DNA from: a virus
IMG/VR virus record: IMGVR_UViG_3300044634_000089
Coordinates: 1 to 22,206 of that record
DNA: 22,206 nucleotides
Strand: one strand, 5' to 3'
Made by a program: the position numbers and the translations under genes. Positions 1,458-12,202 of this stretch are shown here, one piece after another. Within the stretch, counting starts at the first letter, position 1; every line of letters starts with the position of its first letter. The notes under the pieces were generated by a model that did no database searches, was not told where the DNA came from, and saw only the letters and a program-made list of their open reading frames with translations.

Positions 1458-3050
1458 ATGATAGTAAAAGAAGTATTCTTAAAAGATGAAGGACAGGCGA
1501 AATTAAGGTCTGGCATTAAGAAGATTGCGGGAGCAGTCAAATCGACATTAGGTCCATCGGGACAGACGGTGTTATTGGAGTCTGAAAATCATACGAGAGG
1601 ACTGACGGTGACAAAGGACGGAGTGACAATTGCTCGTTCGATTAATCTGTTCGACCCGATTGAGAACTTGGCAGTTCAGTTGATGAAACAAGCGGCCGAC
1701 CAAACGGCAGTAGCAGCAGGAGACGGCACAACAACTGCGGTAGTCCTAACGGAAGCAATAATTGACGCTTTTCAGGAGCTTGATTTTGACAAGTACAACA
1801 AGACGGAAGTTATTCGTGGAGTAAATGCAATTACTGATGACATCGTTAAATTGCTCGATTCAATGTCTAGGAAGGTCTCTAAGCGTACTTTAGTCGATGT
1901 AGCTACAATTTCAGCCAACAACGATAAAGAGCTCGGTAAACTTATCGCTGACACGTTCAAGAAAGTTGACTTGGTTACGGTAGAGAACTCGTCAAATGCG
2001 TCAACCTACAATGAGATTATCTCAGGTATGCGAATTGACAGAGGATGGACAAGTAAGTATTTCGTTAATAACGAAAAGACTGAAGAGTGTGTGTTCGAAA
2101 ATCCGTACATCTTACTGACCGACATTGAGATTAACAACTTGACATTACTTGAGGAAACTCTAGCTCACGTTATCAGAGAACAAAAGCCATTATTGATTAT
2201 TGGTAATTTGTCACCTAATGCGTTGAATACATTAAATATGAATGTCGCAAGGAAAGTAATTAAAGCGTGTCATATTATCCCACCGTCATTTGGTTACAGA
2301 CAGAAAGATTTAATGTTTGATTTGTCGGTAGCTTTAGGTGCTAAATACATCTCTGAGTCTATTGGTGATAATTTATACACATTGACACCACTTGATTTAG
2401 GGCAGGCTGCAAAAGTAATTGTTAGCAAGGAGTCAACGATTATTATGCGTAATGATAATACAGATGAGGCAGTTGAGAAACACTTAGCTGATTTGAAATC
2501 AATGGAATCTGAAAGCATGGACGCAACAGATAAAAAATTCTTGAACGAGCGAATTGCTGGTATCAGTAAAGGAGTTGGTATCATTTATGTTGGTGGTAAC
2601 TCAGATATTGAGCAGAAAGAAAAATACGACCGAGTGGATGATGCGGTGAGAGCAGTAGCAGCAGCAGTTGAAGATGGTATTTTGCCTGGTGGTGGAATTG
2701 CATTGGCAAACTGTGCGGACGCTATCTCAGACAGATATTCTGACAACAAATCGCAAAACTTTATGGCAGCCGTTAGCATTTTAACGAATGCTTTGATTGT
2801 ACCATTTACGCAAATCATGTTGAACGCAGGGGAAGACCCAAAGGCAATCGGTAAGGAGATACTTGAGAAGCACGATTTGTTTTTCGGGTATGACGCTAAG
2901 AACAGAGTCTTTGGAGACTTGATGAAGTTAGGTGTAGTTGACCCAACAAAAGTAACTAAGAGTGCATTAATTAACGCTGTGTCTGTAGCTACAACAATTG
3001 TAAGCACTGAGGCAATAGTAACAAATATGAGAGATGAAAGCAGTAAATAA
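1458..3050 (+). CDS. groEL: Phage-encoded chaperonin GroEL (Cpn60)
   Basis: This 530-residue protein is collinear with bacterial GroEL over nearly its whole length. The ATP site is intact: TKDGV with D54, GDGTTTA with D89, and VDDA with D395, matching D52, D87 and D398 of E. coli GroEL. Apical-domain signatures are present but altered: the usual PGFGDRR reads PSFGYRQ (277-282 region), and the groove residues matching V263/V264 appear as N260 and M261, while W197, Y201 and F202 match Y199, Y203 and F204. The C-terminal GGM tail is absent; the protein ends at NMRDESSK. It should form a ring that folds proteins in the cytoplasm with its co-chaperonin, which is encoded directly after it. The ATG at 1458 follows an A-rich leader. 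A plausible client is a phage virion protein, which is inference. Confidence 0.95.
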   Translation: MIVKEVFLKDEGQAKLRSGIKKIAGAVKSTLGPSGQTVLLESENHTRGLTVTKDGVTIARSINLFDPIENLAVQLMKQAADQTAVAAGDGTTTAVVLTEAIIDAFQELDFDKYNKTEVIRGVNAITDDIVKLLDSMSRKVSKRTLVDVATISANNDKELGKLIADTFKKVDLVTVENSSNASTYNEIISGMRIDRGWTSKYFVNNEKTEECVFENPYILLTDIEINNLTLLEETLAHVIREQKPLLIIGNLSPNALNTLNMNVARKVIKACHIIPPSFGYRQKDLMFDLSVALGAKYISESIGDNLYTLTPLDLGQAAKVIVSKESTIIMRNDNTDEAVEKHLADLKSMESESMDATDKKFLNERIAGISKGVGIIYVGGNSDIEQKEKYDRVDDAVRAVAAAVEDGILPGGGIALANCADAISDRYSDNKSQNFMAAVSILTNALIVPFTQIMLNAGEDPKAIGKEILEKHDLFFGYDAKNRVFGDLMKLGVVDPTKVTKSALINAVSVATTIVSTEAIVTNMRDESSK

Positions 3051-3294
3051 ATTTTTGTTGGTTAATAAGATTGTCGAGGAGAAGAAAGGCTCCTCGGGTC
3101 TTATTTTAACGGGAGATGACGTTAATAAGAATAGATATCAGAACGGCATTGTTTGTGAGGCGGTTGGTAATTTGGTTGACTTTGTGAAAGAGGGCGACAA
3201 GATTATGTTCGACCAAGCGAACTCGCATGAGGTGATGATTGACGGAACGATGTACACGGTCATTCAGGAGCGTGATGTAGTGGCAGTATTGTAA
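3034..3294 (+). CDS. groES: Phage-encoded co-chaperonin GroES (Cpn10)
   Basis: This 86-residue protein has the GroES plan. A first beta strand (KFLLVNKI) is followed by a mobile loop with SGLILTG at 21-27, where LIL replaces the usual IVL tripeptide that docks on GroEL. Then come NGIVCEAVG, a KEGDKIMF strand (GroES: KVGDIVIF) and a C-terminal strand RDVVAVL. It is about ten residues shorter than E. coli GroES, mainly in the roof loop. It would cap the phage (or host) GroEL ring. The start lies inside the end of groEL, a 17-base overlap in another frame that suggests translational coupling. The order groEL-groES is the reverse of the standard bacterial operon. A strong hairpin terminator follows the stop. 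Confidence 0.93.
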   Translation: MKAVNKFLLVNKIVEEKKGSSGLILTGDDVNKNRYQNGIVCEAVGNLVDFVKEGDKIMFDQANSHEVMIDGTMYTVIQERDVVAVL

Positions 3295-3303
3295 AGTAAA
3301 AAG

Positions 3304-3329
3304 AAACCCAGATTATAAGTCTGGGTTTT
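3304..3329. terminator. Bidirectional hairpin terminator between convergent genes
   Basis: AAACCCAGA (3304-3312), a seven-base loop and TCTGGGTTT (3320-3328) form a perfect nine-pair stem with A and T runs on its two sides, so it can stop transcription from either strand. It ends the chaperonin operon on the + strand. On the - strand it overlaps the stop codon of the winged-helix-like gene, whose TAA (3313-3315) lies in the loop. Confidence 0.85.
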
Positions 3330-3819
3330 CTCGTTTTATCTTGTTCTCTCTAATTTTTTTGTTCATGTCCTTGATTGACATAGCGGTCACTTTATCGGTA
3401 TATCGCTCACGCTTAAAGATAGGATTGTTTCTCGGCATCTCCGCTAGTTCTTCCTCACCGTTAAGCACTTTATAGATTTTGGTAATCATAAGTCTAGCAT
3501 TCCTAGTCAACTCATATCTAGGATAGTCGCCATTTCTTGACCAACCTTTGTACCATGCGTGGATATAACCCTCTTTCTTCATTCTTGTAAAACGACCTGG
3601 TTCCCATCCGAATATATTACCGTACTTTTGAAAGTCAGTATAAAAGAAAAGCCCTTCGGAATAAAGAAAGAATAGCATATCTAAATCTTGCTGAGATATA
3701 CCGTATTTCATAGTTGCCCACCGCATAACAATCTTGTGATATTTCAGGTAGTCATATTTAGGTTCTCTCCGTATGTACGTCCTAATTAATTTTTTAACAA
3801 CTTTTTTTGGTTTGCCCAT
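3313..3819 (-). CDS. Winged-helix-like phage protein, possible regulator
   Basis: This is the only leftward gene in the window: 168 residues, strongly basic at both ends. The centre (about residues 35-120) reads as a winged-helix fold of the kind seen in MarR-like proteins: a helix (QQDLDMLFFLYSEG), a second helix, a GWEPGRFTRMKKEGYI recognition-type helix, a basic wing with WSRNGDYPRYELT, and a final helix RLMITKIYKVLNG. Similar proteins are common in Bacteroidota phages as far as I recall. A DNA-binding regulatory role is inferred from the fold, from its opposite orientation and from the palindrome in its promoter region. The ATG at 3819 is preceded by a good - strand promoter. An alternative is a structural DNA-binding protein. 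Confidence 0.75.
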   Translation of the reverse strand: MGKPKKVVKKLIRTYIRREPKYDYLKYHKIVMRWATMKYGISQQDLDMLFFLYSEGLFFYTDFQKYGNIFGWEPGRFTRMKKEGYIHAWYKGWSRNGDYPRYELTRNARLMITKIYKVLNGEEELAEMPRNNPIFKRERYTDKVTAMSIKDMNKKIRENKIKRENPDL

Positions 3820-3848
3820 TTGATTTTAATTATTTAATTCAAAATTAC

Positions 3849-3856
3849 TATATTTG
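3849..3856 (+). promoter_or_regulatory. Promoter -7 element, rightward from the divergent region
   Basis: TATATTTG fits TAnnTTTG exactly. It sits one base from the opposing - strand -7 element. The nearest TTG (3820-3822) is 26 bases upstream, further than usual, so the promoter may be weak or need an activator. Predicted initiation falls close to the ATG at 3865, which would make that transcript nearly leaderless. Confidence 0.5.
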
Positions 3857-3870
3857 CATGAGATATGCAA
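3854..3870. promoter_or_regulatory. Operator-like palindrome in the divergent promoter
   Basis: TTGCAT (3854-3859), five bases, then ATGCAA (3865-3870) is a perfect inverted repeat. Its left arm overlaps the rightward -7 element and its right arm overlaps the leftward -33 TTG. A dimer bound here would block both promoters. The adjacent winged-helix-like protein is the obvious candidate binder, by inference. Confidence 0.45.
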
Positions 3871-4071
3871 GTTCGGATATTAAAAGCTCATAAGGGCATC
3901 GGTGACAGTATCGAGGCAGCAATAAAAGTTGCTAAAATTGATAAAGTAGTTGGTGCAATTACAAGTGCAGTCGGAATACAAGACTGCGGATGTGATAAAC
4001 GAAAAGAGAAATTAAATAATCCTGACTTGTTGATAAATAAAATATTCTATGGGCAAGAGTCAATCGTCTAA
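3865..4071 (+). CDS. Small conserved phage protein with CGC-D-KRKEKLN motif
   Basis: This 68-residue protein has two parts. A helical stretch, GIGDSIEAAIKVAKIDKVVGAITSAVG, is followed by DCGCDKRKEKLN and a short hydrophobic tail. The G-GD-I ... CGC-KR-EKLN pattern is familiar from small proteins of Bacteroidota phages, often near packaging and virion genes; no function is established to my knowledge. The two cysteines could bind metal or form a disulphide, but two alone do not define a zinc site. The ATG at 3865 is chosen because another ATG seven bases upstream is in a frame that stops after 11 codons. It overlaps the next gene by 23 bases. Confidence 0.7.
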   Translation: MQVRILKAHKGIGDSIEAAIKVAKIDKVVGAITSAVGIQDCGCDKRKEKLNNPDLLINKIFYGQESIV

Positions 4072-4309
4072 GTATTACGCAGAAAATCCTGAAGCAGCGG
4101 CTAAAAAAAGGGCATATCAGCGTGATTACAATAAGAAGCCAGGACAGTCGGAATATCGTTCTGAATTAAATACTGAAAGACGTAAGAGAGGTATTTATGG
4201 CAAGGGTGGTCCTGATATGTCGCATACAAAGAAAGGAACGTTGGTCGCTGAGTCGCCATCAAAGAATAGAGCACGAAATGGTGCAAATGGAAAGAGTACT
4301 AAAAAATAG
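4049..4309 (+). CDS. Small basic phage protein, probably nucleic-acid binding
   Basis: This 86-residue protein is very rich in Lys, Arg, Asn and Gly. The pattern runs YYAENPEAAAKKRAYQRDY, then ELNTERRKRGIYG, then DMSHTKKG and NRARNGANGKSTKK. It is recognisable as a phage family that often lies near structural genes. Its architecture is reminiscent of degenerate small HNH-type proteins, but the histidine and asparagine pattern of an active HNH nuclease is not complete here, so no enzymatic activity is claimed. The high charge suggests it binds DNA, perhaps inside the capsid. The start overlaps the preceding gene by 23 bases, and the next gene begins six bases after its stop. Confidence 0.75.
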   Translation: MGKSQSSKYYAENPEAAAKKRAYQRDYNKKPGQSEYRSELNTERRKRGIYGKGGPDMSHTKKGTLVAESPSKNRARNGANGKSTKK

Positions 4310-4315
4310 AAAGAT

Positions 4316-4579
4316 ATGAGCAATTTAAAATTACAAGTAGGACGAGCATTGGCTGTTATACCAAATGATGATGAAGATATTTATTTCGTTGGTTCGGAAG
4401 CTGAGAAAGTTATACCTGCCGTTCTTTACGTTGGAGTAGGGGGCAACTTGAGAGTACTTACAGCTGGAGGAGATGACGTTGTTTTTTACAACTTAAATGA
4501 CGGTGTATTCTTGCCTGTCAATGTAATAAGAGTTTTTGCGGAAGACACTACTGCTGACAGTATTGTAGCACTTTGGTAA
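4316..4579 (+). CDS. Small conserved virion-type protein (spike/decoration-like)
   Basis: This 87-residue, beta-rich protein has the sequence landmarks LYVGVGGNLRVLTAGGDDVVFYNL, GVFLPVNVIRV and a closing TTADSIVALW. This pattern is shared by small phage proteins that commonly neighbour tail or capsid genes and are thought to be virion components. I do not know of an assigned function for the family. It has no signal sequence or membrane segment. The gene sits two bases upstream of the adhesin gene, which fits a part in the host-contact apparatus, but this is inferred from position. Confidence 0.75.
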   Translation: MSNLKLQVGRALAVIPNDDEDIYFVGSEAEKVIPAVLYVGVGGNLRVLTAGGDDVVFYNLNDGVFLPVNVIRVFAEDTTADSIVALW

Positions 4580-4580
4580 T

Positions 4581-5387
4581 ATGTCGTTACAGATATCCAT
4601 ATCAAATGTTATAGGTAATCCTGACCTTCGGGAGACACCTCCTGTAACAAATACTCCGTTCATATCTGAGTGGAAGACGACAGCTATTGACGAAACTATA
4701 ACCCTGCCATATCAAACAAATGGCGGTTATAACGGAACAATTGATTGGGGTGACGGAGAAACATCTGTAAATAAGTATGGAAATAGAACTCATACTTATA
4801 AGTTTCCTGGGACATATACGATTACAATAAGTGGTAAAGTTAGAATATTTAGATTTTCAAATGCTGGTGATAAAGATAAATTATACCGTATTTTTCAATG
4901 GGGTAGTCAATTTGATATTGGAGTAGGTGGAGCACATTTTCATGGTTGCTCAAATCTTGATTTATCAGAAGTAGTAGATGTACTTATATTATATAGACCA
5001 AATCAATTATCTAATACTAGGAATTTTAATAATATGTTTAGAGATTGTACTGCTCTAACAACAATCAATAGATTTGACGAATGGGACACATCTAGGATTA
5101 TTTTCATGGAGGGTTGTTTCAGAAGTGCTACCTTGTTCAATCAAGATATTGGAGATTTAAACATTAGCAACGTAACAAATTTCACAAACTTTATGTTGGG
5201 CAAAACAGATTCTGATTTCTCAACAGCAAATTATGACGCTTTGTTAATAGGTTGGGCATCAAGACCAGTTCAACCAAACTTATCAATTAACTTTGGTACA
5301 ATTAAAAGAACAGCTGCATCAACGGCAGCAAAATCAGTATTAACAAGTGCTCCAAATAATTGGACAATAGTAGATGGAGGGATATGA
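4581..5387 (+). CDS. PKD plus BspA-type repeat (DUF285) adhesin, probable receptor-binding protein
   Basis: This 268-residue protein has an N-terminal stretch of about 25 residues. It is followed by a PKD-like beta domain (about 28-95) with the typical WGDGE turn at 56-60 and HTYKFPGTYTITISG closing strands. From about 145 to 208 there are BspA-type leucine-rich units: NMFRDCTALTTIN, FDEWDTS, FRSATLFNQDIGDLNISNVTNF. The C-terminal part has a YDALLIGWA segment. The PKD and DUF285 pairing is common in secreted Bacteroidota surface proteins, where it mediates adhesion. In a phage it is best read as a fibre tip or receptor-binding protein, possibly acquired from a host surface protein. No secretion signal is seen, consistent with assembly into a virion. 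It is coupled to the next gene by an ATGA overlap. Confidence 0.8.
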   Translation: MSLQISISNVIGNPDLRETPPVTNTPFISEWKTTAIDETITLPYQTNGGYNGTIDWGDGETSVNKYGNRTHTYKFPGTYTITISGKVRIFRFSNAGDKDKLYRIFQWGSQFDIGVGGAHFHGCSNLDLSEVVDVLILYRPNQLSNTRNFNNMFRDCTALTTINRFDEWDTSRIIFMEGCFRSATLFNQDIGDLNISNVTNFTNFMLGKTDSDFSTANYDALLIGWASRPVQPNLSINFGTIKRTAASTAAKSVLTSAPNNWTIVDGGI

Positions 5388-5551
5388 GATATTTTTTAGC
5401 ACATAATGGGATTGACGTTTTTTGTTGCGGACAATTAGAGGAAGGTTCAGAGGTCGTAACAGGTCAACCACATTTAGAGTTCTTTGATGAATTAGAAGGA
5501 CTGACGGACAGATTAGCTGAGTATGGACAAGAAAAACCTGAAGAAATTTAA
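5384..5551 (+). CDS. Small protein coupled to the adhesin gene
   Basis: This is a 55-residue acidic protein starting MRYFLAHNGIDVFCCGQLEEG. The ATG at 5384 overlaps the adhesin stop as ATGA, a better start than the in-frame ATG at 5360 inside the adhesin gene. Small proteins of this look (aromatic start, G-LE-G, TGQPHLE) follow tail fibre genes in several Bacteroidota phages, as I recall. A fibre assembly factor or a short tail component is plausible, but there is no motif that proves it. The coding call rests on the overlap arrangement and on the familiar pattern. Confidence 0.6.
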   Translation: MRYFLAHNGIDVFCCGQLEEGSEVVTGQPHLEFFDELEGLTDRLAEYGQEKPEEI

Positions 5552-5567
5552 TTTAAAACTTTATAAT

Positions 5568-5996
5568 ATGAAATTCTTAATATTATCTACATTACTAATT
5601 CTATGCAGTTGTACTCCACAACGTAGGTTTGAACGTTTAATTACAAGACATCCTGAATTGTTGACTACTCAATATATTGTAGTACGTGATACAATTAGAA
5701 TTACGGTCCCTGAAGTACATATTGATACAATAGTTGATAAACAAACATTAGTTGATACTATTTACTTAGAAAAAGAACAATTAAAAGTTAAAGTTTGGAT
5801 GAAAGGTGAGAAAGTTTACATACAAGGAAAGTGTGATACTGTCTACATTGACAAGGTGATAACTACAAAAGTTCCTGTAAAAATTTATGAAAAAACTCCT
5901 GTATGGAAAAAAATAATTAACTTTATCGTTACATTGATATTTATAGTTGTAATACTATATATCTTATACCGTTTAATACGTAAATACTTATTCTGA
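5568..5996 (+). CDS. Candidate unimolecular spanin (lipoprotein with C-terminal membrane anchor)
   Basis: Using the ATG at 5568 gives 142 residues with a lipoprotein signal (MKFLILSTLLILCSC; predicted lipidated C15). About 95 hydrophilic residues with repeated DTI and Val-rich strands follow. A single membrane segment at about 114-134 is then followed by a basic tail. Outer-membrane lipid anchor plus inner-membrane anchor in one chain is the layout of a u-spanin such as T1 gp11, which joins and fuses the two membranes in the last step of lysis. An in-frame ATG at 5523 would put 15 mostly charged residues before the signal, which is unlikely. The holin starts at the last base of the stop and the endolysin lies 0.9 kb on, so the lysis context supports the call. 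Confidence 0.75.
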   Translation: MKFLILSTLLILCSCTPQRRFERLITRHPELLTTQYIVVRDTIRITVPEVHIDTIVDKQTLVDTIYLEKEQLKVKVWMKGEKVYIQGKCDTVYIDKVITTKVPVKIYEKTPVWKKIINFIVTLIFIVVILYILYRLIRKYLF

Positions 5997-6433
5997 TGAA
6001 AACTGTCGTGTCTCCTTATTTAATTGCTTTATTTAAAGTTATTATTGTATTTTTTGCTCCTATTAAAGGAATTATAGTATTAGTTGCACTGTCAACAATA
6101 TTAGACACAGGTTTTGGTTTTTGGAAAGCCAAGCACCAAAAACAAGCAATAACATCAAAAATATGGAGACACGGATTTGTTCCTAAAGTTTTAAGTTATG
6201 TAGCAGCAGTAATGCTAGTATATACCTCAGATTACTTTATTCTAAATGAATTAATGAAATTAGTACTTAGTATTGAATTTCTAAGTACAAAGCTAATTGC
6301 ATTAGCGTTAATATCCATAGAAGTTAAAAGTATGGATGAATCATTTGTAAAAGTTAAAGGTTGGTCGTTTTTAGAAAAAATCACTAGCTATATTATAAAA
6401 GCAAAAAATATCAAAAAGCAAATCAGCGAATAA
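5996..6433 (+). CDS. Phage holin
   Basis: This 145-residue membrane protein has hydrophobic segments at about 8-24, 25-41, 65-82 and 85-108 and a basic, soluble C-terminus. The motif STILDTGFGFWKAKHQ followed by SKIWRHGFVPKVLSYV is typical of the phage holin family seen in Bacteroidota phages and prophages. A holin accumulates in the inner membrane and, at the set time, opens lesions that let the endolysin reach the peptidoglycan. It directly follows the spanin candidate (TGATG overlap), and the M15 endolysin is two genes downstream. The holin assignment is based on motif and membrane pattern plus context. Confidence 0.8.
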   Translation: MKTVVSPYLIALFKVIIVFFAPIKGIIVLVALSTILDTGFGFWKAKHQKQAITSKIWRHGFVPKVLSYVAAVMLVYTSDYFILNELMKLVLSIEFLSTKLIALALISIEVKSMDESFVKVKGWSFLEKITSYIIKAKNIKKQISE

Positions 6434-6434
6434 T

Positions 6435-6466
6435 CAATTAACAAAAAACAGTATCTTTGTTAATTG
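6435..6466 (+). promoter_or_regulatory. Promoter element inside a perfect 11-bp inverted repeat
   Basis: CAATTAACAAA (6435-6445) and TTTGTTAATTG (6456-6466) are perfect inverted repeats separated by ten bases. The -7 element TATCTTTG (6452-6459) ends inside the right arm. There is no T tract, so this is more likely an operator-promoter than a terminator. A promoter here would drive the downstream small genes and endolysin separately from the holin. Confidence 0.55.
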
Positions 6467-6479
6467 AAAAAGCATACAA

Positions 6480-6579
6480 ATGAAAGAGCAAAAAAGCAAA
6501 AGCTAAAGGTAACTCAACTGGCAAACAATTTGTCAAGCAACCTAAGAGTATAGCTAAAAAAGTTTCAAAATTTAGATAG
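6480..6579 (+). pseudogene. Small basic ORF with a +1 frameshift at an A6 run
   Basis: From the ATG at 6480 the frame stops after eight codons (TAA 6504-6506). If one A is skipped or removed in the run of six at 6490-6495, the frame stays open to a TAG at 6577-6579, one base before the next ATG. The product would be 32 residues and basic, with GNSTGKQFVKQPKSIAKKVSKFR. The tight fit to the next gene suggests real coding. It could be a broken gene, a programmed frameshift or a sequencing error in a homopolymer. Confidence 0.4.
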
Positions 6580-6580
6580 T

Positions 6581-6853
6581 ATGGCAAAGACAGCAGCATG
6601 GACAAGAGCCGAGGGAAAGAGTAAAACGGGCGGGTTGAACGCAAAAGGTGTAGCATCCTATCGTAAAGAAAACCCTGGAAGCAAGTTAAAAATGGCAGTC
6701 ACGACACCTCCTTCAAAACTAGACCCTGACAGTAAGGATGCTAAGCGGAGACGGTCATTTTGTAGCAGAATGTCAGGGGTTAAAGGACCGATGAAAGACG
6801 AAAAAGGAAGACCGACAAGAAAGGCTCTCAGCTTGAAGAAATGGAATTGTTAA
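6581..6853 (+). CDS. DUF6321-like small basic phage protein
   Basis: This 90-residue basic protein has the landmarks [42 protein letters not shown] and a closing [11 protein letters not shown]. The same pattern occurs in a small phage protein family that I associate with DUF6321, found in several marine podoviruses. No activity is established. The high Lys/Arg content suggests nucleic-acid binding or packing within the virion. It lies between the holin and the endolysin, 13 bases before the latter, and is probably read from the promoter at 6452. The DUF name is from memory. Confidence 0.75.
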
Positions 6854-6866
6854 TAAAAGAAATAAG

Positions 6867-7331
6867 ATGTTAAACACAAAACAAATGATTGAAAAATACG
6901 GACAACCTAACGAATTAGGTTCGTTTTTAGTTACTATTAAAACACCTTACCCGATGCGTATTGCTTGGGACACAAAAGTAACTGTTTCTAAAATTAGATG
7001 TCATAAGTTAATATCTGAAAGATTAAGTGCTGTTTTTGCTGATTTGTTAGCACATTATGGGCTTTCAAAAATTCAAGAATTAGGAATTGATTTATTTGGA
7101 GGTTGTTTTAATTTTCGTAAAATGCGTGGTGGCTCTGACTGGTCAAAACATTCCTGGGGGACAGCGATTGACTTAGACCCTTCAAGAAACAAATTAAAAG
7201 AATCATCAAAAACAGCTAGATTTGCAAGACCTGAATATAAACCAATGATTGATATTTTTTACAAACATGGTTTTATAAGTTTGGGACGTGAGAAAAATTA
7301 CGATTGGATGCACTTTGAAATTGGTTCGTGA
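6867..7331 (+). CDS. M15-family peptidoglycan peptidase, endolysin
   Basis: This 154-residue protein carries the zinc-peptidase signature of the M15 (VanY / L-alanyl-D-glutamate peptidase) family. [13 protein letters not shown] at 93-105 gives H95 and D102, and DWMHFEI at 146-152 gives H149. These three residues hold the zinc ion that cuts peptide cross-bridges of the host cell wall. There is no signal peptide, so release depends on the holin, which is encoded upstream. Length and motif spacing fit phage endolysins such as the M15 enzymes of T5-like phages. A virion-associated role in entry is a less likely alternative. Confidence 0.88.
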
Positions 7332-8956: not shown

Positions 8957-9143
8957 CTATCTTAATTCAATGAAATATGTCTTAGGTCAAATCGTTCTTA
9001 ATAACTCAAATATTATTGACTTGATTAAAGAAACGACTGAAGCGTATGAGATTTGGATAAAGAATAGTAATAACGAAATTATTAAATGGAAACAGTTTAA
9101 TAAGACAATGCCAATATCAGTAGAATTTAATATCAACTTTTAA
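8928..9143 (+). CDS. Conserved Bacteroidota phage protein (ITIGPDY type)
   Basis: This is a 71-residue protein: MIRKITIGPDYLNSMKYVLGQ, a helical centre, then YEIWIKNSNNEIIKWKQFNKTMPISVEFNI. This block is familiar from small proteins encoded just upstream of terminase genes in Bacteroidota phages, with no known function. The alternating helix and strand pattern suggests a compact alpha/beta fold. It starts within the previous gene (29-base overlap) and shares a base with the next one (TAATG), so the three are probably coupled in translation. Confidence 0.7.
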   Translation: MIRKITIGPDYLNSMKYVLGQIVLNNSNIIDLIKETTEAYEIWIKNSNNEIIKWKQFNKTMPISVEFNINF

Positions 9144-9724
9144 TGCGTTCACCATATTCATTTATCATTACGCCAAAGAACGGTAATAGGTACGACAACA
9201 AGAAAATGATTGAAGGACAAGAGATTGTCATGTCATCTTCTATGGAGGACCATACCGTTACAAATAGATACGGTTTGGTAAAAGCCTTGCCTATGTATTA
9301 CACTGGGCATATTGAGGTTGGAGATACAGTTATTGTTCACCATAATGTTTTTAGGATTTATTATGACATGAAAGGTCGTGAGAAAAGTTCATGGAATCAC
9401 CTGGTTGATGATTTGTTTATTATTGAGGAAGACCAACTATATTTATATAGAAAGAATGATGATTGTGAATGGCAAGCACCGAACCCGTTTTGCTTTATTA
9501 AACCAATAGCGAACGACAATAAAGATGAGTTGATTCAAAAATTAGGACATGATAAAGAGTTGTGGGGTATTGTAAAATATACTGATAGCTTTATGCCTGA
9601 GTTTAAAATTGGAGATACTGTTTCTTTTACTCCTGATTCGGAGTATGAATTTAAAATAGACGATGAACGGTTATTTAGAATGAGATACAAGAACATATGC
9701 TTAGTAAAAGACAAGAAATCCTAG
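9143..9724 (+). CDS. Double GroES-like (Cpn10-like) phage protein
   Basis: This 193-residue protein reads as two consecutive GroES-like barrels. Domain 1 (about 6-102): YSFIITPK first strand, a polar loop GQEIVMSSSMEDHTVTNRYG, GLVKALP, then IEVGDTVIVHHNVFR and a closing LFIIEEDQLYLY. Domain 2 (about 115-189): FCFIKPI first strand, a loop, WGIVKYTD, FKIGDTVSFTPDSEYEFKIDDERLFRM and NICLVK. GroES has the same order of landmarks (VIVKRKE, mobile loop, GEVLAVG, KVGDIVIF, E.KIDNEEVL, DILAI). The canonical IVL tripeptide is present only as EIVM in domain 1. Similar proteins occur beside terminase genes in related phages, as I recall. A co-chaperonin or folding role is inference; a virion or terminase partner is possible. 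Confidence 0.65.
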   Translation: MRSPYSFIITPKNGNRYDNKKMIEGQEIVMSSSMEDHTVTNRYGLVKALPMYYTGHIEVGDTVIVHHNVFRIYYDMKGREKSSWNHLVDDLFIIEEDQLYLYRKNDDCEWQAPNPFCFIKPIANDNKDELIQKLGHDKELWGIVKYTDSFMPEFKIGDTVSFTPDSEYEFKIDDERLFRMRYKNICLVKDKKS

Positions 9725-9981
9725 AAGCAGGACTTGTCGCAGTAGATGAGTTGGTCAAAATTCTCAGAGAGCCTATTGTGACAAATACGGTAGATGACAT
9801 ATCTGCTGACAAATTAAAAAATGCGGCAGCATCGAAGCGACTTGCTTTTGATGATGCCCTAGCTATCTTATCGAAGATTGAATCTGAGAAAGAAGCATCT
9901 GAAGAACTAAAGAAAGAAAGTAAGGAAGTACCAATTACATTCGCAGAAAATCGTGCAAAAAGTAAAGAAAAACGAAACTGA
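9697..9981 (+). CDS. Helical protein in the small-terminase position
   Basis: This 94-residue protein is mostly helical: KRQEILEAGLVAVDELVKIL, then ADKLKNAAASKRLAFDDALAILSKIESEKEASEEL, then a charged tail. It sits directly upstream of the large terminase gene, where the small subunit (TerS) is normally encoded, and overlaps both neighbours (28 and 29 bases). The DKLKNAAA-KRLAFDDA-AIL motif is conserved in related phages, as I recall. It is shorter than most TerS proteins and has no clear helix-turn-helix, so TerS is only suggested by its position. Confidence 0.6.
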   Translation: MLSKRQEILEAGLVAVDELVKILREPIVTNTVDDISADKLKNAAASKRLAFDDALAILSKIESEKEASEELKKESKEVPITFAENRAKSKEKRN

Positions 9982-12202
9982 AGTTAGCAACTTATATCAA
10001 GTTGTGCATGGAGTCATACCAGACAGATTACTTACTAAATATAACAATAGTAAGTCATGGAAGTATGGGTATGATGAGAGGTACGATATTGTTATAATCT
10101 CTAAAGACGGAACTATCGGAGAAATTTACGAAATCAACAATTTAAAAATCGCACTCCCTAAAGCACCTAAAAGTATATCGAAAGGAATAAATAAATGGAA
10201 ACCTCAAGAATATCCTAAAGAATTATCTAAATTAAAAACTATTTTTGAATGGAATAACAAAGATGAAGCATTCAAACAAAAGTGGGTTGACTATATCAAT
10301 CAACAATTTGACCATCGTGAGGAAGGTTATTGGTTCACAAATAATGGCAGACCGACATACATAACAGGCTCTCATTGGATGTACCTTCAGTGGTCTAAGA
10401 TTGATATTGGTCTTCCCGACTTTCGTGAGTCGAACAGAGTATTTTACATATTTTGGGAGGCTTGCAAGGCGGACAATCGTTGTTTTGGAATGATATACCT
10501 AAAGAACAGACGTTCAGGGTTTTCGTTCATGGCATCGGGTGAAACATCAAACATTGGTAGTATTGCAAAAGATGCAAGACTTGGTATTTGTTCTAAAACA
10601 GGACCTGATGCTAAGAAGATGTTTACCGATAAGGTAGTGCCAATCATTAAAAATTACCCATTCTTTTTCAAACCCGTTCAAGACGGTATGGATAATCCAA
10701 AGACAGAGCTCGCTTTCCGTGTGCCTGCATCTAAGATTACCAAGAAGAATATGTACGAGAAAAGCAATATTGATATTGAAGGACTTGATACAACAATTGA
10801 CTGGAAGAATACGGACGACAACTCGTATGATGGGGAAAAACTATTACTACTCGTTGAGGATGAGTCAGGAAAACTTGAGAAGCCGAACAACATAAAGAAC
10901 GGTTGGAGGGTAAGAAAGACTTGTTTACGTTTGGGTAGTAGGATTATTGGTAAATGTATGATGGGCTCAACCGTCAACGCACTCGCCAAAGGTGGAGGCA
11001 ACTTCAAAGATTTGTACTACGACTCTAATCCTATCAAGCGTTCGTCCAATGGTCAGACCAAAAGTGGGCTTTATAGCTTGTTTATACCTATGGACTTTAA
11101 CTTTGAGGGATTTATTGATGAGTTTGGACACGCTGTAATCAAAGACCCTGAGCAACCTATTATGGGCTGCGATGGAGAGATGATTAAAATGGGCGTTGTA
11201 ACTTATTGGAATAACGAGGTCGCATCATTGAAGTCAGACCCTGACGCATTAAATGAATTCTATCGTCAGTTCCCTAGAACGGAGTCTCACGCATTTAGAG
11301 ATGAGTCTAAGCAGTCTTTGTTCAACTTAACAAAGATATATCAGCAAATCGACTATAACGACTCTCTAGTAAAAGACAGAGTATTAACTCAAGGTTCATT
11401 TCATTGGAAGAACGGCATTCAAGATTCAGAAGTTATTTGGACACCAGACCCTAGAGGTAGATTTTTAGTGTCATGGATTCCTCCCCAACACTTGCGAAAT
11501 AATGTGCGTACTTTTAACGGCAGAAAATCACCAGGCAATGCTGACCTTGGTGCGTTCGGTTGTGACTCCTATGACATCTCAGGAACAGTTGGAGGTGGTG
11601 GTTCAAATGGAGCACTACACGGATTGACATCATTCAATATGAATCCAGATGTACCGTCCAATATGTTTTTCTTAGAGTATGTCGCTCGTCCACAGACAGC
11701 AGAGATATTTTTTGAAGAGGTACTGATGGCGTTGGTGTTTTATGGTATGCCAATATTAGCAGAGAATAATAAGCCAAGATTACTTTATCACTTAAAGAAC
11801 AGAGGATATAGAGCATACTCGATGAACCGTCCTGACAAGGGAATGGCACAACTATCTAAGACAGAGATTGAATTGGGAGGAATACCTAACTCGTCAGTTG
11901 ATGTAATGCAGTCGCACGCATCATGTATCGAGTCATATATCGAGGAGTATGTTGGATATGACACTGAGGGGACTTATAGAGATAATGAGGAGATAGGTAA
12001 TATGTTCTTTACAAAAACATTAGAAGATTGGGCTAAATTTGATATTAGAAATAGAACGATGCACGATGCTTCGATTAGCTCAGGTTTAGCTGTTATGGCG
12101 AATAGAAAAAACCTATTTAGACCTGAAGTTCAAAAACCGAAAATAAGTGTTAAATTTGCAAGATACGATAACTCTGGAACAAACAGTCAAATAATAAAAT
12201 AA
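9953..12202 (+). CDS. terL: Terminase large subunit
   Basis: This 749-residue protein is the DNA-packaging motor: an ATPase and headful-type nuclease that pumps DNA through the portal. ATPase landmarks are LKNRRSGFSF at 183-192 in the Walker A position (without the usual Lys), LLLLVEDE at 297-304 as Walker B with catalytic E304, and CMMGSTVN at 335-342 as the coupling motif. The RNase H-like nuclease follows, with GCDSYD (D538), AEN around E604 and HDAS (D705) as probable metal ligands. The size and layout fit the terminases of crAss-like phages. The start is a GTG at 9953; there is no in-frame ATG between the upstream stop and residue 137. The portal gene begins at the last base of its stop. 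Confidence 0.92.
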   Translation: MQKVKKNETEVSNLYQVVHGVIPDRLLTKYNNSKSWKYGYDERYDIVIISKDGTIGEIYEINNLKIALPKAPKSISKGINKWKPQEYPKELSKLKTIFEWNNKDEAFKQKWVDYINQQFDHREEGYWFTNNGRPTYITGSHWMYLQWSKIDIGLPDFRESNRVFYIFWEACKADNRCFGMIYLKNRRSGFSFMASGETSNIGSIAKDARLGICSKTGPDAKKMFTDKVVPIIKNYPFFFKPVQDGMDNPKTELAFRVPASKITKKNMYEKSNIDIEGLDTTIDWKNTDDNSYDGEKLLLLVEDESGKLEKPNNIKNGWRVRKTCLRLGSRIIGKCMMGSTVNALAKGGGNFKDLYYDSNPIKRSSNGQTKSGLYSLFIPMDFNFEGFIDEFGHAVIKDPEQPIMGCDGEMIKMGVVTYWNNEVASLKSDPDALNEFYRQFPRTESHAFRDESKQSLFNLTKIYQQIDYNDSLVKDRVLTQGSFHWKNGIQDSEVIWTPDPRGRFLVSWIPPQHLRNNVRTFNGRKSPGNADLGAFGCDSYDISGTVGGGGSNGALHGLTSFNMNPDVPSNMFFLEYVARPQTAEIFFEEVLMALVFYGMPILAENNKPRLLYHLKNRGYRAYSMNRPDKGMAQLSKTEIELGGIPNSSVDVMQSHASCIESYIEEYVGYDTEGTYRDNEEIGNMFFTKTLEDWAKFDIRNRTMHDASISSGLAVMANRKNLFRPEVQKPKISVKFARYDNSGTNSQIIK

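Follow-up and report, generated by a model that had tools for sequence, protein, structure and literature searches.

The window, i.e. the whole 22,206 bp stretch analysed here, a genome fragment that makes up a complete IMG/VR record, carries an overlapping groEL-groES gene pair (Table 1) that is a maintained core module of its podovirus family. The pair probably serves as a GroE machine dedicated to the phage, with its own ring and a matching lid, both of old acquisition and co-evolved with the phage lineage. The window includes terminase, portal, capsid and tail-type genes and belongs to a podovirus family with genomes of ~60 kb, to which Flavobacterium Elemovirus, Maribacter phage Panino and ctfjg026 (MW202828) are related. 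Capsid protein identity is 63% to ctfjg026, 55% to Panino and 48-49% to Elemovirus. Since the cultured capsid relatives, Panino and Elemovirus, infect Flavobacteriaceae, the host of the window phage is likely to be a member of Bacteroidota.

Phage GroEL/GroES pairs have already been published and the present pair is a further example; a passage of PMC7185714, citing Marine et al. 2017, states that some phages have both GroEL and GroES homologues. Annotations of groEL, groES and a further GroES exist in Elemovirus records. Marine et al. 2017 reportedly described phage-encoded group I-type GroELs of the virioplankton that diverge from those of bacteria; a tandem Cpn10, L234E, ring-interface changes and an intein are not known to feature there. 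We did not find earlier descriptions of the residue-level remodelling, of a tandem Cpn10 identity for the second protein, of lids without a ring in phage phi13:2 or of the apparent GroEL intein presented below.

Table 1. Positions of the chaperonin genes and neighbouring features in the window
Feature	Position	Strand	Description
groEL	1458-3050	+	530 aa; group I-like chaperonin subunit that keeps the ATPase residues and has no GGM tail
groES	3034-3294	+	86-aa co-chaperonin; mobile loop present; roof segment of 9 residues instead of 18
Terminator-like hairpin, both directions	3303-3329		Between groES and the convergent gene
Conserved convergent gene, 168 aa	3313-3819	-	phrog_17028; syntenic with the pair in most relatives
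Second co-chaperonin relative, putative tandem (double-domain) Cpn10, 193 aa	9143-9724	+	phrog_13932 'co-chaperonin GroES'
Large terminase subunit	9953-12202	+	phrog_6681, E 4.6e-173; virion/packaging block begins here
Major capsid protein candidate, 464 aa	15787-17181	+	phrog_13704 'virion structural protein', E 9e-106; possible client

Sequence features of GroEL and GroES

The sequence-only reading had described a full-length GroEL with intact ATPase aspartates and a full GroES with a mobile loop, and both descriptions held. The groEL product is a full-length Cpn60 that matched PF00118 over profile positions 1-488 of 490 (E 1.6e-58) and phrog_5725, 'chaperonin groEL' (E 2.3e-121), and is 36% identical to E. 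coli GroEL by alignment. Equivalents of E. coli D52, D87 and D398 and of the GDGTTT motif were all found in a residue table, and the three aspartates are invariant, one gap aside, in 59 phage GroELs, 4 of which have S in place of T90.

The groove which receives lid and client is altered in the window protein, where, in E. coli numbering, L234 is E, V263 is N and V264 is M, with L237, L262 and also F204 being kept. Comparison with the 59 phage GroELs and with 80 broadly sampled bacterial GroEL loci among the matches listed revealed E at position 234 in 55 of the phage proteins, as against L, V or I in all 80 of the host proteins; V263 and V264 were likewise altered and L237 and L262 retained in the phage set. 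When introduced into E. coli GroEL, L234E reportedly weakens the binding of GroES as well as of polypeptide. At the ring-ring contact positions A109, R452, E461, S463 and V464, the window protein has D, T, D, K and A, respectively. A109, R452, S463 and V464 are conserved in the 80 listed host GroELs but scattered in the phage GroELs, 13 of which carry R452E, one of the changes made in SR1, the engineered single-ring GroEL. A GGM-type tail was present in 68 of the 80 listed host GroELs and in none of the 59 phage ones. Judged by these residues, the phage GroEL is devoid of the bacterial ring-ring contacts and of the GGM tail and has retained its ATPase residues. Such contacts are usual in bacteria but not essential, as mitochondrial Hsp60 can work as single rings.

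The groES product is a Cpn10 (PF00166, E 1.1e-11; phrog_3188, E 3.2e-13), and its AF2 model (pLDDT 78) matched Cpn10 structures, the best Foldseek match being 1p3h (E 5e-6). Its mobile loop, KKGSSGLILTGDD, contains the hydrophobic-tripeptide stretch GSSGLILTG, the family consensus being KTxSGLLLS. With the boundaries set in this analysis, the loop measures 20 residues in phage GroES, two more than the 18 of E. coli. All 67 phage GroES proteins compared have a 9-residue roof segment; its length is 18 in most hosts and 11 in T4 gp31. Nine of 77 host GroES proteins, three Bacteroidota ones among them, have a 13-residue roof, and in 5 of the 77 it is as short as in the phages; a short roof is therefore neither phage-specific nor diagnostic. 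By its sequence, the window GroES lacks the roof hairpin, as does T4 gp31. The hairpin is a usual but not a required part of GroES.

Conservation, gene order and ancestry of the pair

The sequence-only reading had placed groEL first, with groES starting 17 bases inside its end; the two genes do overlap by 17 nt (3034-3050) in that order. A scan with the window GroEL yielded 65 viral loci, in 64 of which the downstream side was present, and groES followed groEL in the same orientation in all 64, at a spacing of -17 to +807 nt, with the convergent gene usually next. To avoid selecting for GroEL, we examined a second sample of 12 long contigs found through the capsid protein. GroEL and short GroES were both present in 7 and both absent in 5 of these; groEL came first in 7 of 7. 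Both genes were present in 6 of 6 contigs of at least 56 kb, and the 5 contigs devoid of the pair are all shorter than 52 kb and may be incomplete. The groEL-groES order, which the sequence-only reading had suggested looking for in related phages, was found in both samples. dN/dS was ~0.05 for groEL as well as for groES in comparison with the closest relatives, i.e. both genes are under strong purifying selection; this, together with an order kept in every assessable relative, argues that the pairing is not a matter of chance. It had also been stated that phages carrying GroEL are uncommon. This stands for phages overall, only 223 of 50,697 phage records matching the window GroEL, but fails for this family, in which the gene is core. 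Two records filed as phage, CAKLQH020000021 and AGRM01000005, carry a host-like groEL and inflate phage GroEL counts: the former has a typical host groS-groL neighbourhood and the latter is labelled Salmonella enterica.

An assembly chimera of phage and host DNA at the pair, which the sequence-only reading had named as a finding that would refute it, was ruled out. The same neighbourhood, comprising exonuclease, small ORFs, groEL, groES and the convergent gene, recurs in many independent contigs, and in the circular 60,850-bp genome MW202828 this pair precedes the genes for terminase, portal and capsid. The pair sits on its own side of the hairpin and the convergent gene, outside the virion block. 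The hairpin has a 12-pair stem on the + strand and a 9-pair stem on the - strand with a T-rich tail after each, and is identified by consensus match only. The product of the convergent gene had no Pfam match; the gene at the same place in MW202828 is annotated 'repressor protein', and as a gene that stays beside the pair in most relatives it may encode a regulator. The Bacteroidota promoter pattern TAnnTTTG was also considered near the pair, but it occurs 42 times as against 27 expected and is uninformative for a single site.

The sequence-only reading had further noted that the gene order is opposite to that of bacteria and had argued against recent capture of a host operon; both points were borne out. 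In 77 of the 80 host loci among the matches listed, groES lies upstream of groEL; of the other three, one has groES between two groELs and in two groES was not detected. A Candidatus Brocadia locus (2980-6724) has groEL, groES and groEL in a row. If the pair were a recently captured host groE operon with its order rearranged, the phage GroEL would be a spare host chaperonin, and some phages do capture the gene: in our GroEL tree of 58 sequences, the GroEL of Bacteroides phage SJC03, with groES upstream, nested inside Bacteroidota and that of Vibrio phage TDDLMA inside Gammaproteobacteria. As these host-like phage GroELs nest in host groups, the tree is able to detect capture. The window family, in contrast, formed a 19-member clade outside bacteria (SH-aLRT 100), which argues against recent capture of a host operon, and forcing it together with Bacteroidota was rejected (AU p = 0.020, in a quick tree with long branches elsewhere). 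The best host identity to the window GroEL was 38.5% by alignment among the 80 host loci listed, as against 45-61% for phage relatives, near-identical copies left out. Recent capture is accordingly very improbable, and the pair was probably acquired long ago by this podovirus lineage and evolved with it.

Among phages, the gene order tracks lineage: groEL precedes groES in the window family, in Elemovirus and in Panino, and follows it in Callevirus, immuto and SJC03. This pattern fits the link between order and phylogeny in virioplankton, where Marine et al. 2017 are said to have tied the order of the two genes to GroEL lineage. A GroES beside the GroEL of crAss-like cr108_1 was sought and rejected, as the overlapping 92-aa ORF matches no family.

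A putative tandem Cpn10 upstream of the terminase

One small ORF upstream of the large terminase gene lies a gene (9143-9724) that the sequence-only reading did not mention. Its 193-aa product matched phrog_13932 over residues 1-186 (E 3e-23), with a sub-threshold Pfam Cpn10 signal (E 0.0057), and the dN/dS of the gene is 0.03-0.06. The best PDB match of the AF2 model (pLDDT 73) was 7ekq_R, chloroplast Cpn20 (Z 10.0 over 160 residues; Foldseek E 5e-5), and this match spans both halves, whereas single Cpn10 chains match the second half only. The model thus resembles Cpn20, in which two Cpn10 domains lie head to tail, at a sequence identity of about 14% and with a C-terminal phage domain that has no clear mobile loop. 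The C-terminal half is a Cpn10 by profile, with fair sequence evidence. Assignment of the N-terminal half, which is weak in the window and better in homologues, rests on the model and the homologues, since profile comparison of this half of the window protein to Cpn10 gave a probability of 2.6%; residues 1-100 of the model were barely tested beyond the Cpn20 match, which does not count against other folds there.

The gene, carried by 11 of the 12 capsid-found contigs, lies just upstream of the terminase gene in this family, and a tandem Cpn10 is also found at that place in Elemovirus, Panino, Callevirus and the Pachyviridae phage phi13:2. Such a constant terminase neighbourhood, together with the weak Cpn10 signal in the window, is what one would expect of a virion or packaging protein that reuses the Cpn10 fold and is not a co-chaperonin, and we give this explanation a substantial probability, somewhat short of an even chance. 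Against it, the homologues in phi38:1, phi13:2 and Elemovirus do give a Cpn10 signal, and a segment resembling a mobile loop is present in the N-terminal half ('ESGLELH' in phi13:2, 'SNGLILN' in Elemovirus). Further, Flavobacterium phage MaF61 (locus 1900-4165) has an unmistakable double Cpn10, with two Pfam stretches, directly before groEL; this protein is possibly a natural Cpn20-like lid with its own ring. Phage phi13:2 has two Cpn10-type genes (record positions 30087-30311 and 40708-41304), one short and one tandem, and no GroEL, which indicates that lids of this kind can work with host GroEL or else function in its absence.

In public records the tandem protein appears only as 'co-chaperonin GroES', 'chaperonin cpn10' or hypothetical, and its homologues occur in several Bacteroidota phage groups. 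If its role as a second lid holds, it would to our knowledge be the earliest recognised case of a double-domain Cpn10 beyond the plant lineage. In the sources available to our literature search on cpn20 and phage, nothing was found about a double Cpn10 in phages. A paper of 2013 regarded the double-domain Cpn10 as confined to plant lineages (PMC3542282), a view that the phage tandem Cpn10, including that of the GroEL-less phi13:2, would contradict if confirmed.

Proposed role and comparison with known systems

We propose that the overlapping genes would supply, during infection, a phage GroEL ring and its matching GroES lid, which would fold phage proteins through ATP-driven cycles of binding, encapsulation and release. 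L234E, the other changes in the apical groove and the roofless lid with its slightly longer mobile loop, as in T4 gp31, suggest that ring and lid are adapted to each other and to a small range of clients. Loss of the interface residues and of the GGM tail suggests that the ring would work singly or through a ring-ring contact of a non-bacterial kind. Other contacts could replace the lost ones, by analogy with the chaperonin of phage EL, whose double rings rely on different contacts (PMC7185714). Virion proteins, the ~50 kDa capsid protein for example, may be the clients, and the tandem Cpn10 encoded next to the terminase may represent an older, gp31-like co-chaperonin also usable by host GroEL; both suggestions are less certain. 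The self-sufficient folding machine and the demanding capsid or tail client of the sequence-only reading are accordingly no more than possibilities, and host GroES or GroEL may also be used. Capsid homologues do not appear to need GroEL strictly, since phi13:2 has a distant homologue of the capsid protein (23% identity) and no GroEL.

As L234E reportedly weakens the binding of both GroES and polypeptide in E. coli, the pair could instead act as a holdase that encapsulates weakly or not at all. A single-ring chaperonin of the EL/OBP/AR9 type would then prevent aggregation without encapsulating, and GroES would act mainly on host GroEL, as T4 gp31 does. The lost ring-ring residues, the missing tail and a substitution within the lid-binding groove are in line with this, as are the two Cpn10-type genes of phi13:2 in a genome devoid of GroEL, and EL, OBP and AR9 function without a co-chaperonin, OBP and AR9 being single rings (PMC9598537, PMC7185714). 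Yet GroEL and short GroES are strictly linked in the family, overlapping in the window and co-present or co-absent in 12 of 12 capsid-found contigs; L237, L262 and F204 as well as the mobile loop are retained; and the window GroEL is nearer to bacterial GroEL, with its 36% identity to the E. coli protein, than is that of EL (22%, PMC7185714). We therefore regard a holdase as unlikely and prefer the dedicated folding machine. A more elaborate arrangement, in which a probably single-ring GroEL is served by two lids, its own roofless GroES and, for capsid or packaging proteins, the tandem Cpn10, is conceivable though doubtful; if true, these phages would have a naturally occurring single-ring GroE with an encoded lid still in use.

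Among known systems, Elemovirus (NC_055853) resembles the window in having groEL followed by groES (1-nt overlap), a tandem 'co-chaperonin GroES' just before the terminase and a homologous structural block, but its GroEL is only 35-36% identical and its pair is encoded within the late region, on the opposite strand; the Elemovirus GroEL joins the window family in the tree (SH-aLRT 93). In Caudoviricetes sp. ctfjg026, from Manatee Spring, groEL, groES and the convergent gene are followed by M15 peptidase, tandem Cpn10 (annotated merely hypothetical), terminase, portal and capsid genes as in the window, whereas identity is 45% for GroEL and 43% for GroES and the two genes are separated by a 4-nt gap instead of overlapping. 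Maribacter phage Panino, published with GroEL and GroES homologues (PMC11590407), likewise has groEL then groES on one strand and a tandem Cpn10 before the terminase, but differs in its 77-kb genome, 20 tRNAs and diverged GroEL. Cellulophaga phage phi38:1 (Callevirus) has its own GroEL, a short Cpn10 and a tandem Cpn10 beside the terminase; in contrast to the window, the order is groES, one ORF and groEL, on the replication side, and its GroEL falls outside the window clade.

T4 gp31 is, like the window GroES, a phage co-chaperonin without roof loops and with a longer mobile loop, but its partner is host GroEL and it belongs to a separate family, phrog_931; the absence of roof loops is considered a help to gp31 in folding the larger capsid protein gp23 (PMC6318259). 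EL, OBP and AR9 share with the window a phage-encoded GroEL relative in which ring pairing is weakened or absent, but they need no co-chaperonin (PMC9598537), whereas the window groEL has an overlapping, co-conserved groES; EL is also far more divergent from GroEL than the window protein. While these characterised phage chaperonins lack a lid, the window family would represent compact, lid-bearing phage machines, and retention of GroES together with conserved loss of the bacterial ring-ring contacts bears on whether encapsulated folding needs two rings. Relatives are in culture, Elemovirus on Flavobacterium sp. BAL314 and Panino on Maribacter, so that direct experiments on the number of rings, the specificity of the lid and the client in the phage are feasible.

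One relative, IMGVR_UViG_3300044640_001715, with a GroEL that matches the window protein at 98% identity over the aligned part, has a 328-aa in-frame insertion in groEL (locus 6273-7256) that splits the ATP motif between GDG and T and carries a LAGLIDADG signal (PF14528, E 3.9e-6). An RNA intron was considered and rejected, as there was no Rfam match and the insert is an open frame; the open frame and the LAGLIDADG signal led us to read it as an apparent intein. Our literature search returned no GroEL intein and no report linking inteins with chaperonins in phages. Similar inteins do occur in phage helicases and terminases.
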